DNA of 62,093 nt from Nitrospirota bacterium (GTDB lineage Bacteria; Nitrospirota; Nitrospiria; SBBL01; JAADHI01), in assembly GCA_029261155.1 (NCBI GenBank), contig JAJDBW010000007.1, positions 1 to 62,093 on the forward strand. Direction: 5' to 3'. A model generated the notes under the pieces. The model was not told the origin of the DNA. It saw only the letters and a program-made list of their open reading frames with translations, and did not search any database. This document shows positions 43,674 through 53,329 of this stretch, in pieces. The first letter of the stretch is position 1. The number at the start of each line of letters is the position of its first letter. The position numbers and the translations under genes are program-made.

Positions 43674-45836
43674 TCACCCAGTTCGAGTTTGAACCTTCTC
43701 CGTTTTCTTGAATTTCATTTTTGAATCAATTCGGTCGTAGGCCTCTCGGCATTCCTTAACGAAAGCGAGTCCTTCATCGAGCATCGGTTTTAGGCTTTCT
43801 GCGGTGCCTCCGAAAACAGCCCACTTTCCAAGTTCTTCAGTAAAGATTTCGAATCGCTCAGAGAGGAGGCCTTGTTCGACAAATTTCTGTTGGAATTCTT
43901 TGAGGATTTGATCATCGTGTGGCGAGTCTGTCCCAAAAGTATACAAAAGCGATCGTGCATCGAAGAGGATGGCTTCTTTGATGAGATCGCCCGCTTCTTC
44001 GTATTTATTCCGATCGAAGGCGCGCGCGGCTTTTGTGATTGATTCCTCGGCGCGTCGTAAGTTGTGTTCGATCATGTCGACCACAGTACCCGAACATTCT
44101 CCGGGACCGATTTCATCGAGCGAAAAAACTTTATCTTCTTCCTTCCAATCCCGATACATCGAAAGGGCCCCATCGATGGGGGGCAGGTCGGTAAATTCAG
44201 AAAGCTTTTCGCCGATGGCCTCACGACCATAGCGATCAATAAACGCATTAAAGCCTTCTTCTCCTTCACGATTTTCGCGAAACAGCTTGATCAATGCCAT
44301 AATGGCCGATGGGATGTTCTTGGCTGGGAGTTTGATTTTAGATTTGCCGATCACGGCTTTATCGGCATTGACGCCGCCACCGAGATGCATCTGATAGTGG
44401 GGGACCAGTGTGCCGTTTACTTTTTTGGCCACGCCATGCAAACCGATGCCCGCAATATGATGATGCCCACAGGAATTGGGACAACCCGAAATGCGCACGC
44501 GAACACCAGCCAAATCGTCATAGTTATCGAGCTCGCTTGAGAATTTATCGACGATGGCGCCTCCGACACCCATGGAATTGGTCAAGGCCAGCTGACAGGT
44601 ATCGGCTCCGGGGCAGGCGATCACATCCACCACGCGCTCGGCACCCGCATCGGCTAAACCAATGGCGTTTAAGGCTTCATAAAGCCCAGGAATTTGTGTC
44701 GCGGTGATTCCTTGTAGAATGATATTTTGCTGATGGGTGGTTCGAACCGTTTTGGTTTCAAATTGATCGACGACATCCGCCAAACCGCGGAATTGTGCGA
44801 CAGTAATATCACCGAGGCGTAGTTTGATTTGAACGGCGCAGCTTTCGTCCACTTGCGGGATAATGTTCGTCTTGCGCCATTGTTCAAAGCGTTGCGCATT
44901 TGGCTCTGTCCCTTTGCTTTCTTGCACAAGCGGCATTGTCGGCGTTTTCGTTTTTAATCCCGGAAGCGGAAGCGTTGGAAACTGTTGGCCGATATCCTTA
45001 ATTTCCGCCAGTATTTTTGTCATTTCTTCTTTGAACTTGTCCATCCCCCAGTTTTCGAGTACAAACTTCATCCGCGCCTTGCTCTTGTTGCGTCGATTTC
45101 CGTGGGTGTCGAAGAGTTTAAGAATGGCTTCGCAAAAAGGAAGGACTTCATCCATTGGGAGAAATTCCGTGTATAGCTGTGCCAGTTTGGGGTGCGATCC
45201 TAATCCACCTCCGACAAAAACCTTAAATCCAAGTTCTGTCTGACCTGCTGCTTCACGGCTTCCGGCGACAAAACCGATGTCGTGAATGGCGGCCAGTCCG
45301 CATTCGCTGGTGCAGCCGGAAAAAGAGATCTTGAATTTTCGCGGAAGATCCTGGTTAATGGGGTTCCAAAGTAGGTGATAGGCGACCTTTTCGGCGATTT
45401 CGGAAACATCGAACAACTCGGTCGGACACATCCCGGCCAAGTGGCAGGAGGTTACGTTCCGTACGGTGTTTCCGCAAGCTTCGCGTGTGGTCAGGCCGAC
45501 TTTGGAGAGAGCGGTCATCACTTCGGTTACTTTTTCCAGCTTCACATAGTGGAACTGAATATCTTGCCGCGTGGTGACGTGGCCGATTCCCGTGGCGTAG
45601 TGTTCGGCGATGTCGGCCAGGCCGCGCAATTGCTTGGCTGTCAGGTGTCCGGTGGGGATTTTCACGCGGACCATCTGGCTTCCCGGTTGTCGCTGTCCGT
45701 AAATGCCATTTTGTAGCCGGTAGCGCTTAAACTTCTCCTCAGGGATTTCCTTGTTCAGATATAAGGAGACCTGTTCCTCGAATTTTTGGATCTCCTTGCC
45801 GAAACTTTCTTGTATATCTGTGCCGTTTTGTTTCAT
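43674..45836 (-). CDS. Siroheme sulfite/nitrite reductase with HEPN-like C-terminal extension
   Basis: A 720-residue ferredoxin-type reductase for sulfite or nitrite with siroheme and a 4Fe-4S cluster. Two pseudo-symmetric halves are seen. The usual ligand set is in half two: C408-x5-C414 and C452-x3-C456 (GCPNSCGHHH). Half one has an equally complete set, C131-x5-C137 and C175-x3-C179, which I recall as lost in most relatives. After about residue 570 an all-helical extension (ITKAARAFDRNKYEEAGDLI) resembles a HEPN domain. The neighbouring TusA gene favours sulfite. The ATG has AGAGG upstream. Confidence 0.88.
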   Translation of the reverse strand: MKQNGTDIQESFGKEIQKFEEQVSLYLNKEIPEEKFKRYRLQNGIYGQRQPGSQMVRVKIPTGHLTAKQLRGLADIAEHYATGIGHVTTRQDIQFHYVKLEKVTEVMTALSKVGLTTREACGNTVRNVTSCHLAGMCPTELFDVSEIAEKVAYHLLWNPINQDLPRKFKISFSGCTSECGLAAIHDIGFVAGSREAAGQTELGFKVFVGGGLGSHPKLAQLYTEFLPMDEVLPFCEAILKLFDTHGNRRNKSKARMKFVLENWGMDKFKEEMTKILAEIKDIGQQFPTLPLPGLKTKTPTMPLVQESKGTEPNAQRFEQWRKTNIIPQVDESCAVQIKLRLGDITVAQFRGLADVVDQFETKTVRTTHQQNIILQGITATQIPGLYEALNAIGLADAGAERVVDVIACPGADTCQLALTNSMGVGGAIVDKFSSELDNYDDLAGVRVRISGCPNSCGHHHIAGIGLHGVAKKVNGTLVPHYQMHLGGGVNADKAVIGKSKIKLPAKNIPSAIMALIKLFRENREGEEGFNAFIDRYGREAIGEKLSEFTDLPPIDGALSMYRDWKEEDKVFSLDEIGPGECSGTVVDMIEHNLRRAEESITKAARAFDRNKYEEAGDLIKEAILFDARSLLYTFGTDSPHDDQILKEFQQKFVEQGLLSERFEIFTEELGKWAVFGGTAESLKPMLDEGLAFVKECREAYDRIDSKMKFKKTEKVQTRTG

Positions 45837-45961: not shown

Positions 45962-46924
45962 ATGCGGCAAATTTGCTTTAGGATCCTCGCAAGGGGACTT
46001 GGCCTACTTTTCATTGTTTTTCAATCCAATCCGGCTTTGGCCTTGGGTTGGGAAACGGCCCGTTCTGCACCCAGCGCCAGAACGGAGATCGCAGCGGCTG
46101 CATTGAAGGGGAAGATCTATATCCTCGGTGGGTTTAAGTTGACGGGGGTGAGCGCTGGTGTCGAGCGCTACGATCCTGTAACGGATCGTTGGGAGGATAG
46201 AGCAGATTTACCGGAGGCCGTCCATCATGCGGGTGCGGCCGTCGTTGATGAGGTCCTCTATGTCGTCGGAGGCTTCGGAGGCCTTTTTTCATGGAAACCC
46301 AGCAATAGGGTCTGGGCTTATGACGAACAAGGAGACCGCTGGATCGAAAAAAAAGCCATGCCGACCGCCCGAGGCGCTTTGGGTTTGGCCGTTTGGCAGG
46401 GAAAACTCTATGCCATTGGCGGTTTGGCTGAGACATCGAGTGGGAAAATGAATGTCGATGCGAACGAGGCCTACGATCCTTCCTCCGACACTTGGGAATC
46501 TAAGGCCCCACTGCCCTTCGCACGAGATCACCTTGCTGCCGCAGAATTAAATGGCAAAATTCATGCGATTGGCGGGAGACTCGACAGCGCTTTTTCAAAG
46601 AATCTCGACCGGCACGATATCTACGATCCCAAATCCGATCAATGGCTCACCGCCACACCACTCCCAAAACCGCGCAGCGGGATCGCCGCCGCCGTTCTAA
46701 AAGGTAAAATCTATGTCTTTGGTGGCGAATCGCCGGCGGGGACCTTTAAGGACAATGACGCCTACCACCCGGAGACAAATCAATGGGAAGCCTCCCTCCC
46801 AATGTCGACGGCACGTCACGGTTTGGGTGCGGTAACTGTGAAGAATAAGATTTACGTGATCTCGGGTGGAAGGAAACCCGGCGGATCACGAAGTAAGATC
46901 AATGAGGTTTTTTCTTTAGAATAA
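45962..46924 (+). CDS. Exported Kelch-repeat beta-propeller protein
   Basis: A 320-residue secreted propeller. A signal peptide ends at PALAL. Six Kelch units of about 47 residues follow, each with a GG pair and a conserved Tyr and Trp (for example ILGGFKLTG, YDPVTDRWEDR, GGRLDSAFSK, YDPKSDQWLT). Such propellers bind sugars or proteins; no galactose-oxidase copper site is visible. It has no ribosome site, but a promoter lies seven bases upstream. It is convergent with the phosphatase/PFK gene. Confidence 0.85.
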   Translation: MRQICFRILARGLGLLFIVFQSNPALALGWETARSAPSARTEIAAAALKGKIYILGGFKLTGVSAGVERYDPVTDRWEDRADLPEAVHHAGAAVVDEVLYVVGGFGGLFSWKPSNRVWAYDEQGDRWIEKKAMPTARGALGLAVWQGKLYAIGGLAETSSGKMNVDANEAYDPSSDTWESKAPLPFARDHLAAAELNGKIHAIGGRLDSAFSKNLDRHDIYDPKSDQWLTATPLPKPRSGIAAAVLKGKIYVFGGESPAGTFKDNDAYHPETNQWEASLPMSTARHGLGAVTVKNKIYVISGGRKPGGSRSKINEVFSLE

Positions 46925-47010: not shown

Positions 47011-49320
47011 TCAAGAAGCTTGTTTCTCTCCGCCGTGCATCCTTGAGAAAACGTCCCAATCGAAGGGTCTGGACTGAACATCGTGCAAGGGCGTTGCCAT
47101 GAATTTCCCTTCCGATTGACGTTTGAGGAGGCAACCGACGGCGGTCTGCGGTTCATCGATCAAACGCCGAATGGTTTCGTAGGCCAGATCTTGGGCAAGG
47201 ATTTTATCCTCCGGCATGGGGGGCGCGCCTCGGAGGGTGTGACCTAAAATCGTCGCCTTGGTGGCCACGGCCAAGGGATAAAATTTCCCTTTCGGTCGAT
47301 GCCATTTTGAAAGGGTATCGGAGATATACTCTACTAGGCCATGAACACCCCCAAGTGGGTGATGTCGGTGGGGTGTTTTCTCGGCAACAATAAAAAGATG
47401 ACTTTTATTCGGAACACCGAGAGATTGCTTTAAAGTTCCCAAAATCACGTCTTCGATATATGCGTCGGGGTCCGGATGTTCGTTGACCAAGATCCCTTCG
47501 GCCCGGGCCTGGTAGGCACAAGTTAAGGCTAAATGCCCGGAGCCTGCGCCCATCAATTCCACTAAAAATACACTTCCCATTGCGGCACTGGTGGCCTTTA
47601 GCGATTCGAGCGAATGGTTGGCCAAGGCAACGGCAGAGTGGAAACCCAAGGCAGTTGTTCCCGCAAGATTGTTGTCGATGGTGCCGGGGAGGCCGACGAC
47701 CTGAACACCGAAATTTTCGAAGAGTGCGCGCGCACCCCGCAGGCTGCCATCGCCGCCAATCACAACCAGGGCGCCATTTTCTAAATAGGGTTGGAGGTGG
47801 CGGATGGCAACACGCTGAATGGCTTCGTCTTTAAAATCCTCAAAGCGGCTGCTGCCAATGGGGCTACTTGCTTGCTTGGCCATGCCGCGCATCTGTTGTT
47901 CACTAAAAAATTCGATCCAGTTGTTCGCGAGGCCGAGAAAGCCGTGTCGAACAAAGTGCACCTTCAAGCCCATGCGCTCACCTGTCGAACGTAATTCCTT
48001 TAAGGCCGCACCGGCCCCGGAAAAGTCACCCCCAGAAACGAGGGCGACGACTTGTTTGATCTGTCCCGGCCTTAGGCTTACGCGCTTCAGCCTTTGGTCT
48101 TCCATCGTTTGCGCCGTTTCTCTTGCGGCCCGCTCATGCGCAGAAAGGCCGACGGCGGTCGAATATCCGGATAAACGCCCTTTTTCGTAGGTGAGAAGAA
48201 CGACATTGTCCTGCCCTTCTTTATAAGATCCGAATTCGCCGTAGGCTTCCTGAAAAGGACGCGGATCCAAGTAGGTTATCACTGCCCTCAGGGTGGAGCT
48301 ATGCGTATAAAGACAGGCCACATGACCTTGATGCGATTTCGAAAATTCTTGTAGACCGTCGACGACACCAACATAAAAATCAAAGAAACTATGCCCGCCG
48401 GGCGGGCAGTACAAGGGATGCTTTAAGAATTGATGTGCTGTCTCGGCATCCACCCCAAAAGCCTCAGAAGCGAGTTCGACTTCCTGCGATTTTTTCATGC
48501 CGGTGGCCCAGCCGAAATCTTGCGATTCCAATATGGGTTCGATCGCGGCTCGGGGGCCTTCTTTGTCTGTTGGCATCAGTGCTGTAATAACGCGCTCGAA
48601 AAGTTGCTGGGTATTTGGGCTGCTACTAATTCGATGGATAATGGTTTGGGGATCGAGATAATTTTCTAGATTGAGAAAATCGAGTTGCCGGCCCACAACA
48701 CCGACCATTTTGGCCAAGGCGGCCCCGACGGCATCTGCCTTAGCCACACCGACGTTCTCATCGAGGGTGTTGGACATGCGACGACCGACTTTATAGATCT
48801 TGCTGTCGATATGAGAAAGGCCGTGCCGCATTGTAAAGAGGAGGGTTCTTTCACTCAGATCTTTTGGTAAAAGCCAAAAACGGTCGTCGCCGAGATCGAT
48901 CACAATTCGCCCTTCCGCCAAAAGCGGTGTGAGCTCTTTCCTGGGTACAATCGCGACTGGGCGTTGACTCATGGGTTTCTGCACCCTACCGATAGGCGCG
49001 CGATAGAGCGCCGTCAGTGCGCCCTTGGCCAGAAGGAAATTCCAGGCCGCAAAGAACACCAATTCATCCCCACCGCAGATCTCGTCGATGAGCGCACAAC
49101 GCGAACGATGATATTGGTCGGCATCGGGAAAGCCGGAAGCAGCGCGCCCCACGAAGGCGCTCATCTCCGGAATGGCATCCTTCGTTTGTTTAAGGCGATT
49201 TTCCGTGTCCGGAGGCGCCGGCGGAAAGAGTACCCCATCCGGCTGCCTTTGCTTCGATAGGGTTTCCCCATAGCCCAATAGGCCTTCAATGGAAACAAAG
49301 GAGAACGCAGTTTCTTCCAT
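47011..49320 (-). CDS. Fusion of a histidine phosphatase and a PfkA-like sugar kinase
   Basis: A 769-residue cytoplasmic protein with two enzyme-like halves. Residues 1-150 are unrecognised. Residues 160-395 are a phosphoglycerate-mutase-like histidine phosphatase: R165-H166-G167, the Glu-Asp-Phe-Gly region near 265, and the second His in YTH at 340. Residues 420-760 follow PfkA: GGD at 430-432, GSSRF, GGDGS at 522-526 and PGTIDNN at 545-551. By eye-alignment with E. coli PfkA the Arg residues that bind fructose-6-phosphate (R162, R171, R243) become S, A and K, so the substrate may differ. A ribosome site (AAAGGA) precedes the ATG. No operon partner is seen. Confidence 0.87.
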   Translation of the reverse strand: MEETAFSFVSIEGLLGYGETLSKQRQPDGVLFPPAPPDTENRLKQTKDAIPEMSAFVGRAASGFPDADQYHRSRCALIDEICGGDELVFFAAWNFLLAKGALTALYRAPIGRVQKPMSQRPVAIVPRKELTPLLAEGRIVIDLGDDRFWLLPKDLSERTLLFTMRHGLSHIDSKIYKVGRRMSNTLDENVGVAKADAVGAALAKMVGVVGRQLDFLNLENYLDPQTIIHRISSSPNTQQLFERVITALMPTDKEGPRAAIEPILESQDFGWATGMKKSQEVELASEAFGVDAETAHQFLKHPLYCPPGGHSFFDFYVGVVDGLQEFSKSHQGHVACLYTHSSTLRAVITYLDPRPFQEAYGEFGSYKEGQDNVVLLTYEKGRLSGYSTAVGLSAHERAARETAQTMEDQRLKRVSLRPGQIKQVVALVSGGDFSGAGAALKELRSTGERMGLKVHFVRHGFLGLANNWIEFFSEQQMRGMAKQASSPIGSSRFEDFKDEAIQRVAIRHLQPYLENGALVVIGGDGSLRGARALFENFGVQVVGLPGTIDNNLAGTTALGFHSAVALANHSLESLKATSAAMGSVFLVELMGAGSGHLALTCAYQARAEGILVNEHPDPDAYIEDVILGTLKQSLGVPNKSHLFIVAEKTPHRHHPLGGVHGLVEYISDTLSKWHRPKGKFYPLAVATKATILGHTLRGAPPMPEDKILAQDLAYETIRRLIDEPQTAVGCLLKRQSEGKFMATPLHDVQSRPFDWDVFSRMHGGEKQAS

Positions 49321-49634
49321 GGCAATGTCCTTTCCTCAAACAAGAAAACGGATAAGAAGTGTATCGGATAGACCAATCCGCATTCAACTGGCTGCTTTAT
49401 GAATCATTCCTACGGGGCTAGTTTTTGGGAATGTTCTTGAGGGGAGATAAAAGACAGTGAAGGTTTGATTTGGGAGGCAGGATCTATTTTTTTAATGGGC
49501 AGATCCAATGCCGTCAGGTTCGGAGAATAATTGGACTAATTGGAAATAAGTACATCTTAGAACTCTTCAGTTTTATAGCCGTACCAAAAACAACGATTTC
49601 TACTTGAAAGGACGTTTCATGTGGAAAGCATGCT
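49321..49634. other. Intergenic region between the PFK-like fusion and IS21
   Basis: 314 bases with no gene. It probably holds the promoter of the fusion gene on the minus strand, but I see no strong boxes. A GGATCT...AGATCC inverted pair lies at 49480-49506 with a 15-base loop, of unknown meaning. Confidence 0.45.
49629..49634. repeat. IS21 target-site duplication, left copy
   Basis: CATGCT, identical to 53366-53371, immediately outside the left terminal repeat. Confidence 0.85.
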
Positions 49635-50102: not shown

Positions 50103-51432
50103 GAGGGTGTTCAAAATTTTGTGTCAGTTAACCGAAGCTGATAAATTCAGCTTTTAATAAGGAGGACTGACATGAAAAAAGAAGAGAGCGGTTTTGATTT
50201 TCAAAAGGCCCTGAAAGCCATCCAAGACGGACAACCCCTTCTTGGAAAAGAAGGCATCTTAAACCCCCTGATCAAGAACCTCACCGAAGCGGCGCTTGAG
50301 GGGGAAATCGATTCTCACCTTGGGCAAGAAGTTGCGGCGAACCGGCGCAATGGCAAAAGTAAGAAAACCATCAAGTCCCTCAATGGGAATTTTGAATTGT
50401 CCACGCCGCGGGATCGGACCGGGACCTTCTCGCCAAAACTGGTCAAGAAACACCAAACCACCCTCACGGACGAGATTGAGAAGAAAATCATTGGTCTTTA
50501 TGGCTTGGGGATGAGCTACCAGGACATTGCCCGCCATATCGAGGAAATGTACGGCCTGGAAATCTCAACGGGAACGTTGGCGGCCGTGACCGACAAAATT
50601 ATCCATACGGTCAAAGCATGGCAGGCGCGTCCCTTAGAATCTATCTATCCGATCCTCTGGCTGGATGCCATCCATTACAAAATTCGGGAAGAGGGCAAGG
50701 TAAGAAATAAGGCAGTCTACACCGTCTTGGGTGTCGATCTTCAGGGGAAAAAGGATGTGCTGGGCCTGTATCTCTCCGAGAACGAAGGATCTCATTTCTG
50801 GCTTTCCCGTGCTGACGGATCTTTCAAATCGCGGCGTGAGCGATATCCTGATCGCCTGTATTGATGGACTGAAAGGCTTTCCCGAGGCCATCGAAAGCAT
50901 CTTTCCGAAGACCGAGGTTCAACTATGCATCGTGCATCAAATCCGCAATTCCCTAAAATATATCGGCTGGAAAGACCAGAAGGCCTTTATGATGGACCTC
51001 AAGAAGGTTTACAGAGCGGCCAACAAGGAGCTGGCGTTTTCCGAATTGGATCGGCTGGAGGAAAAATGGGGAGAGAAATATCCCATCGTCATTCGGTCGT
51101 GGAAAAATAACTGGGAGCGGCTCTCTCAATATTTCAAGTATCCGGAAGCCATTCGCCGGATCATCTACACGACCAATACCATAGAAGCCGTGCATCGGCA
51201 ATTTAGAAAATTAACCAAGACCAAGGGCGCGTTTCCCAATGCGGACAGCCTTTTGAAGCTCTTGTATTTAGGTATCCTGAACGCTGAAAAGAAATGGACG
51301 ATGCCGATCCAAAATTGGTCGCTCACGCTTTCCCAACTGGCGATCTTTTTTGAAGGCCGGCTGGATAAGGAACTATCAATTTGTTAAGCTTCAAAAACCA
51401 AAAAAACCTGACACAGAATACTGAACACTCCC
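50103..51432 (+). mobile_element. IS256-family element inserted in istA
   Basis: A 1330-bp element with 25-base terminal inverted repeats (left GAGGGTGTTCAAAATTTTGT, right GGGAGTGTTCAGTATTCTGT, 20 of 25 matching overall) and a perfect 8-bp target duplication. It holds one transposase gene, which has a frameshift. The insertion point is between codons for FFP and QV of IstA. Confidence 0.93.
50172..51387 (+). pseudogene. IS256-family (mutator) transposase with a +1 frameshift
   Basis: The gene would encode about 405 residues. The first Asp lies in WLDAIHYKIR, the second in CIDGLKGFPEAI and the Glu in TNTIEAVHRQF. The frame breaks at 50806-50808, where CCC stands in place of an expected CC (WLSVLTDLS); codons after that continue in the next frame to the stop at 51385. 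A good GGAGG ribosome site precedes the ATG. IS256 elements are not known to use programmed frameshifting, so this is probably a loss-of-function change. Confidence 0.9.
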
Positions 51433-51440: not shown

Positions 51441-52555
51441 AAGTCCACCCACCTGGAAAATTAAGCCAGTCTGATTTCACCCACATGGAGAAATTAGGCG
51501 TCACGATCGGCGGCGCGCCCTTTGATCACCTGATCTATCATTTTTGTCCTCACCTATTCGAACTGGGAATACGGCACGATCTGTTTTTCTGAAAGTTTTG
51601 AGAGCCTGAGTGAGGGTTTACAGCAAGCCTTATGGAAACTGGGTGGCACTCCCCAGTTTCATCAGACGGACAGTCTGTCCGCCGCAGTGAGTAAACCAGA
51701 GAGTCCGGAAGAATTTACCCGACGCTATCAGGGACTCTTGTCTCATTACCGATTGGTCGGACGGAAGACCCAGCCGGCACATCCCAACGAGAATGGGGAC
51801 ATAGAGCAGCGGCATCATCGCTTCAAGCGGGCTTTGGATCAGGCGCTCATGCTCCGTGGCCGTCGTGAGTTTGCCACTCGGAAAGAATATGAGGCGTTTC
51901 TGGAAGGACTTTTTTCGCAACTCAACGCGAACCGGCAAGACCGTTTCAAGGAAGAGCTGGCCTTATTGCGGGCATTGCCGAATAAGCGCTTATCCGCCTG
52001 CACCCCGTTCACGATTTCCGTGGGGCCAAGCAGTACGATTCGGATCAACCGTAATGTCTATTCGGTGCACAGCCGACTGATCCGGGAGAAGATATGTGTT
52101 CGGCTTTACGCAGAGCGCCTGGAGATCTGGCAGGGCCAGAGCCATATCGAAAACATCCCTCGGCTCTTAGGTTCAGGCAAGCACAAAATTCAATATCGGC
52201 ACATTATCGACTGGCTGGTCAGAAAGCCCGGCGCCTTTGAGAACTACCGTTACCGCAGCGATCTTTTTCCGACGAGCCGTTTTAGAATGGCCTACGATGC
52301 CCTGAAACAAGATCATGCCCTTTCAAAAGCGGGCAAGGAATATCTTCTGATTCTGGAGTGGGCGGCCAAGGAGAATGAAGCGGCCGTGGATGATGCCCTT
52401 CGCTTCCTGTTCGATCGGAGTTGGCCCATATCCGTAGCGTCTGTGAAGCGTCTTGTCCTCGCAGGCCAGAAGCCCGCGGCGGCAACGGACGTGACCATTT
52501 CTGCGGTTCCTCTGCATGCCTATGACTCCCTTTTAGAGAGCGTGGAGGTGCGGGC

Positions 52556-53329
52556 ATGATTGAAATACATGGCGAATTGACCCGGCACCTGAAAGAGCTG
52601 CATCTCCCAGCTTTCCGGGAATGTTATCGGAGCGAAGCGGATTTGGCTCGCCAGGAGTCATTGTCCCATGAACAGTATCTCCTGGAGTTGGTCAAAAGAG
52701 AATGCGAGGAAAGAGCGCATAAGCGGATTGCCCGCTATCTGCGTGAATCAAAGCTGCCCCTTGAAAAAAACATGGAGACCTTTGAACGAAAACGTCTCCC
52801 GGACAAGGTTAACGGCCTGGTTGATCATCTTCTTGACGGGTCCTTTATGGACCGGAATGAAAATGTCTTGGCTTTCGGCAACCCCGGCAGCGGCAAGACG
52901 CATTTGCTCTGCGCTATTGGGCAGATCTTAATCCAGCAAGGTCATCGTATTCTATTTACCCTCTGCAACCTGCTGGTGCAAGAACTACTCATTGCCAAAA
53001 GGGATCTAAAGCTTGCGAAGGTGCTGAAAAAATTCTCCCGATATCGTGCCCTGATCATTGACGATATCGGATATGTTCAGCAGAGCCGAGAAGAGATGGA
53101 GGTCCTCTTTACCCTGCTGGCGAATCGATACGAACGGGGCAGCGTCATGTTAACAAGCAATTTACCCTTTTCCAAGTGGGAACAGATTTTCAAAGACCCC
53201 ATGACCACCGCTGCGGCCATTGACCACCTGGTTCATCACAGCATTATTTTGGAATTGAACCTGCCAAGCTACCGCTTGGAGCAGTCCAAAAAGGAGAAAA
53301 AAACAGGCGGACGGAATCGGGAATTATAA
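52556..53329 (+). CDS. istB: IS21 helper ATPase IstB
   Basis: A 257-residue AAA+ ATPase that helps IstA choose targets. Walker A is GNPGSGKTH (about 108-116) and Walker B is ALIIDDIGYV. It is full length and looks intact. Its ATG overlaps the istA stop (ATGA). With istA broken it has no partner in this copy. Confidence 0.94.
   Translation: MIEIHGELTRHLKELHLPAFRECYRSEADLARQESLSHEQYLLELVKRECEERAHKRIARYLRESKLPLEKNMETFERKRLPDKVNGLVDHLLDGSFMDRNENVLAFGNPGSGKTHLLCAIGQILIQQGHRILFTLCNLLVQELLIAKRDLKLAKVLKKFSRYRALIIDDIGYVQQSREEMEVLFTLLANRYERGSVMLTSNLPFSKWEQIFKDPMTTAAAIDHLVHHSIILELNLPSYRLEQSKKEKKTGGRNREL

Follow-up and report, generated by a model that had tools for sequence, protein, structure and literature searches.

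Fusion of a divergent histidine-phosphatase-like domain with a phosphofructokinase-type kinase of altered acceptor site in the class Nitrospiria

Layout and distribution of the fusion gene

The window (the whole stretch of DNA that was analysed, 62,093 nucleotides) carries a single uninterrupted ORF at 47011-49320 on the minus strand, which opens with ATG and encodes 769 aa followed by a stop codon. The first-pass annotation had described the product as a phosphatase and a PfkA-type kinase joined in one protein, and this was borne out by the intact ORF and its matches to both PF00365 and PF00300. The boundaries between the three regions of the protein (~1-150, ~151-410 and ~420-769) are approximate.

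47011..49320, minus strand: fusion gene, an ORF with colinear Nitrospiria homologues 61-80% identical over the full length
49328..49336, minus strand: Shine-Dalgarno-like sequence AGGAAAGGA 5' of the ATG
48871..49320, minus strand: N-terminal region, residues 1-150, with no Pfam/NCBIfam match
48091..48870, minus strand: divergent branch-1 histidine-phosphatase domain, residues 151-410; PF00300 barely above cutoff, dN/dS 0.03-0.09
47014..48063, minus strand: PfkA-type kinase domain, residues 420-769; PF00365 at 2.9e-54, alignment to E. coli PfkA (1pfk) at 1.4e-32

The Pfam match to PF00365 (PFK) spanned residues 425-718 and profile positions 3-275 of 277, and the same profile matched 22 of 22 fusion members; no P-loop kinase match was obtained with Pfam. 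The match to PF00300 (His_Phos_1) was marginal (8.2e-5, residues 253-359, 22.8 bits with the cutoff at 21.7) and was seen at E<=0.01 in 17 of the 22 members. For the NCBIfam equivalog TIGR02482, the fusion scored 171.5 bits, far below the cutoff of 371.35. Residues 1-150 gave zero matches to Pfam or NCBIfam families. Structures predicted for the full-length protein and for the phosphatase domain alone had pLDDT values of 42-43, probably since only six sequences were eligible.

Within the window, this is a solitary gene, flanked by a Kelch gene and transposase remnants. The Kelch gene (45962-46924, plus strand), convergent with the fusion gene, encodes a likely signal sequence followed by about six Kelch repeats. 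At 43674-45836 on the minus strand lies a gene whose 720-aa product is sulfite/nitrite-reductase-like, having two NIR_SIR modules and, towards its C-terminus, a weak HEPN-like stretch. A Mutator-family (IS256-like) transposase (50172-51387, plus strand), located some 850 bases upstream of the fusion gene, is divided between two overlapping ORFs that are in different frames, and it looks frameshifted. An IS21-type pair was also observed at 51687-53329 (plus strand), consisting of an IstA-like transposase, of which the C-terminal part is present, and then an IstB ATPase.

The search for the same fusion in other genomes, which had been proposed as a check, found it to be conserved. Colinear, single-copy homologues were present in 33 of 58 relatives, the other 25 being without the gene, and 41 of 198 genomes of the phylum Nitrospirota carried one copy each, all within the class Nitrospiria. 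A scan of genome contigs with short exact peptide patterns returned named homologues from Nitrospira/Nitrospirales only. No fusion relatives were found outside Nitrospirota in a plasmid search at 80% coverage, nor any in the viral contigs searched. In a tree, the fusions formed one clade with a long stem and modest support (0.72). One relative (G017) has the fusion gene broken by a frameshift into two overlapping ORFs, which is what an assembly or gene-calling artefact would look like; the G017 transaldolase gene is fragmented likewise, and the fusion gene is intact in dozens of independent genomes. An artefact is thereby refuted, and its probability is negligible.

Within the reach of these searches, the fusion is a domain architecture new to the PFK superfamily and confined to Nitrospiria. 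A literature search found no papers on it. The text of a 2025 review of the PFK superfamily, which foresees new domain fusions in unsampled phyla, contains no word starting with 'phosphatase' or 'Nitrospir' (PMC12203962).

Donor and acceptor sites of the kinase domain

Site residues were tallied in 49 distinct fusions aligned with 30 stand-alone PFKs, E. coli PfkA among them. Kinase site numbers such as R162 and D127 follow the E. coli crystal numbering.

47668..47682, minus strand: TIDNN, residues 547-551; catalytic D549 (D127) kept in 49/49, N551 in place of D129 (N in 49/49)
47572..47574, minus strand: S583 for Arg162, a 6-phosphate ligand from the adjoining subunit; S46 T2 N1 versus R in 30/30 stand-alone PFKs
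47545..47547, minus strand: A592 for Arg171; A in 49/49
47359..47370, minus strand: HRHH, residues 651-654, an insertion after Glu222; H651 and H653 in 49/49, H654 in 48/49
47257..47259, minus strand: K688 for Arg243, a 6-phosphate ligand; K in 49/49 versus R in 30/30 stand-alone PFKs
47230..47241, minus strand: H694 and R697 (His249 and Arg252), phosphate ligands kept in 49/49

On the donor side, G11, R72, G102, D103, G104, S105 and G124 were present in all 49 fusions, and the Gly104 and Gly124 pair is that of the ATP-dependent 6-phosphofructokinases. The GGDGS and TIDNN motifs picked out earlier were located at residues 522-526 and 547-551, and the catalytic Asp and the GGD motif were retained throughout, as claimed, with the GGDG donor loop kept in 49/49.

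On the acceptor side, a by-eye alignment had proposed that the Arg ligands of fructose-6-phosphate (F6P) are replaced by S, A and K, and D129 by N. The tallies reproduced each replacement (R162 to S583, R171 to A592, R243 to K688, D129 to N551), with the stand-alone PFKs keeping R162, R243 and D129 in 30/30 and R171 in 26/30. What that list had overlooked are the 6-phosphate ligands H249 and R252, which were kept in every fusion, as were E222 and M169. Of the F6P phosphate-ligand set R162/R243/H249/R252, R162 was present in 0/49 and R243 was uniformly K, so that half of the phosphate clamp is retained, namely H249 and R252 together with the Lys replacing R243. In classical PFK, R243 is contributed by the neighbouring subunit. 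With R162 likewise coming from that subunit (PMC12203962), the inter-subunit half of the clamp is the part that has changed.

In total, 91 positions were fixed or nearly fixed in the fusions and rare in stand-alone PFKs; several lie around the acceptor site, and they include most of an SHQR to AMGS change. Directly after Glu222, the fusions alone carry the insertion P-H-x-H-H..GGV.GL, where 30/30 stand-alone PFKs have a gap. Also replaced were R54 and K213, effector-site residues of the E. coli type.

The kinase half resembles bacterial ATP-PFK (E. coli PfkA, 1pfk; PF00365) in its fold, GGDGS, G104/G124, D127, E222, H249 and R252. It differs from E. coli PfkA by R162S, R171A, R243K, D129N, the HxHH insertion, the changed effector-site residues and ~415 extra N-terminal residues. 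Among the PPi-dependent PFKs (C. thermocellum Pfp and others), some likewise have M, Y or C in place of R162 (PMC10339645); those enzymes use PPi and have H249 replaced, whereas H249 and the ATP-type G104/G124 are both present in the fusion. Judged from these residues, the kinase half looks active, of the ATP type and rebuilt at its acceptor site, and a novel substrate is plausible.

An alternative is that the protein is an ordinary ATP-dependent 6-phosphofructokinase, in which a catalytically dead phosphatase-like domain serves in allosteric sensing or in oligomerisation. The retained donor site, D127, E222, H249 and R252 are consistent with this, and with R54 and K213 replaced, regulation could have shifted to the new domain. 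R162 is dispensable in some PFKs, since PPi-PFKs with R162M/Y/C, some also with H249L/Y, are active on both F6P and sedoheptulose-7-phosphate (S7P); loss of R162 alone thus does not exclude F6P (PMC10339645). Set against an ordinary PFK is the finding that R162, R171, R243 and D129 were changed jointly and fixed, while the sampled stand-alone PFKs keep R162, R243 and D129.

Since S7P use in PPi-PFKs goes together with the loss of R162 (PMC10339645), the fusion might instead be an S7P kinase working in place of transaldolase. Of 58 genomes, 53 have transaldolase-family genes, and nearly all carriers are among them; this counter-argument is not absolute, as the family includes F6P aldolases. Replacement of transaldolase was accordingly rejected, and we consider an S7P kinase of this kind very improbable.

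The histidine-phosphatase domain

48820..48828, minus strand: RHG motif, residues 165-167, invariant in 49/49
48607..48609, minus strand: Q238, at the usual position of the second catalytic Arg (SPLxR); R25 E13 K7 T2 Q1 H1 in 49
48523..48525, minus strand: S266, at the usual position of the acid/base Glu; S in 49/49
48301..48303, minus strand: H340, second catalytic His (THSSTLRA), 49/49

The register of Q238 was read by hand from an alignment to E. coli GpmA/GpmB of weak profile similarity, and that of S266, also by hand, from the FG/YG motif versus GpmA. The RHG motif and the second His, named in the first-pass annotation as the marks of a phosphatase, were present and invariant in all 49 family members, as in branch-1 histidine phosphatases; to this extent the assignment stands. 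The rest of the site departs from it. The second catalytic Arg (R152 of PGAM5, R62-type) was not conserved, unless its part is taken by a different Arg, R181 for example, and Ser uniformly occupies the position of the acid Glu, leaving two of the five classical catalytic residues not conserved in the family. Invariant alternative candidates in the domain are R181, N184, D268 and K277. Work on PGAM5 describes two His and two Arg as an invariant cluster and the Glu position as one that varies across the superfamily (PMC5501728).

The domain is like the branch-1 enzymes (dPGM/GpmA, CobC, PGAM5) in its RHG, in a second His with an HxxxLRA-like context and in similar motif order. It is unlike them in having no conserved second Arg, Ser for Glu and G[HN]S for GES, and the similarity is very weak; a profile search of the PDB matched no histidine phosphatase to it. 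Estimates of dN/dS, which are rough as distant pairs are near synonymous saturation, were 0.03-0.06 for the kinase, 0.03-0.09 for the phosphatase domain and 0.08-0.36 for the N-terminal region. The phosphatase domain is under strong purifying selection and nearly as constrained as the kinase, which argues against decay. Given that neither the second Arg nor the Glu is conserved, the domain may be catalytically dead; on its residues, it would be either rearranged, ligand-binding or dead.

A likeness to eukaryotic PFK-2/FBPase-2 (PFKFB) had been noted, and it holds for the architecture, a sugar kinase and a histidine phosphatase on one chain. It does not extend to homology of the kinases, the kinase half here being PF00365 without a P-loop kinase match. 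The two systems have opposite domain order, kinases of unrelated fold and different acceptor chemistry. PPIP5K/Vip1, which controls one signalling metabolite, likewise combines a kinase and a histidine phosphatase on one chain; it differs from the fusion in its unrelated kinase, its phytase-like phosphatase and its inositol pyrophosphates (PMC11836120). The fusion is built like these kinase/histidine-phosphatase switches and is not a member of either.

Genomic context and candidate roles

No conserved operon was found around the fusion in 32 intact-gene loci, where the pyruvate kinase gene alone recurs, in a third of them. This main recurring neighbour adjoins the fusion gene in 10 of the 32 and is divergent in 9. 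The neighbouring pyruvate kinases form two groups that share only ~38% identity and lie among different flanking genes. This suggests a functional tie to lower glycolysis, not simply the common descent of a single locus. A glgC-like gene is divergent from the fusion in one locus. Downstream of the fusion homologue in three loci (L003, L007, L043), a Barstar-like gene (178 aa) was seen within a conserved run of small genes in one Nitrospira group.

In the window genome (G000, 3.56 Mb), a different contig encodes one more PFK, of the ordinary kind (L001, G000:C44:33032-33952), which combines G104 with K124. That combination is usually tied to PPi or mixed donor use, so that the organism may possess a PPi-type PFK alongside the ATP-type fusion. 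Most fusion carriers also have an ordinary PFK and class I FBPase, and a role beyond that of a plain PFK is likely for this reason. Several replacements were considered and rejected. FBPase is not replaced by the fusion, as class I FBPase occurs in 57 of 58 genomes (GlpX in 0 of 58). Nor is iPGM, which is present in the window genome and whose pattern of presence does not track the fusion. The presence of glycogen phosphorylase showed no clear correlation with the fusion.

In five carriers (G009, G024, G047, G054 and G057; G054 is single-contig and 99%-complete), the fusion was the sole PF00365 protein found, and there it may be the ordinary PFK. This and the adjacency of pyruvate kinase speak for an ordinary phosphofructokinase, while the additional PFK in most carriers speaks against it; taken with the acceptor-site changes, we regard it as a serious contender, though a doubtful one.

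A true bifunctional enzyme, one that both forms and breaks down a signalling sugar bisphosphate as a convergent analogue of PFK-2/FBPase-2, would account for two strongly constrained domains on one chain, and the ordinary PFK and FBPase kept in most carriers are enzymes that such a signal could control. The two classical phosphatase residues that are not conserved weigh against it, as do the lack of a known receptor or product and the relatives without the gene, some of which have ordinary PFK and FBPase. We consider it quite unlikely.

The reading we prefer, tentatively and at somewhat less than an even chance, is an ATP-dependent PfkA-superfamily sugar-phosphate kinase with a rebuilt acceptor half-site and a divergent histidine-phosphatase domain, serving as a regulated switch in the central carbon metabolism of Nitrospiria. 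It draws on the colinear single-copy fusion, the site tallies with the 91 fusion-specific positions, the HxHH insertion, the invariant RHG and H340, the constraint, the pyruvate kinase adjacency and the ordinary PFK and class I FBPase of most carriers. Counting against it are the use of F6P by R162-less PPi-PFKs (PMC10339645), the five carriers with the fusion as their sole PFK-family protein and the phosphatase domain's non-conserved Arg and Glu positions. In such a switch, Mg-ATP would be the phosphate donor and the acceptor would be a sugar phosphate, either similar to F6P or a related monophosphate (S7P, for instance), whose phosphate would be held by H249, R252 and K243, perhaps aided by the HxHH insert. 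The phosphatase domain, with its rearranged site, would bind or slowly dephosphorylate a related phosphorylated metabolite and could thereby tune or oppose the kinase.

In sugar metabolism, the fusion probably acts as a control point of a novel type. A bolder and unlikely possibility is a bacterial bifunctional kinase/phosphatase with an evolutionary origin separate from PFK-2/FBPase-2; by adjusting the amount of a sugar bisphosphate, which need not be F1,6BP, it would control the switch between glycolysis and gluconeogenesis in nitrite-oxidising Nitrospira. These bacteria rank among the major oxidisers of nitrite, and little is known about how they direct carbon towards fixation, storage or breakdown. 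The PFK annotation of the fusion genes in Nitrospira models may carry the wrong substrate, and the class-wide fusion of a rebuilt PFK with a phosphatase-like domain offers a concrete, testable candidate for control in these organisms.
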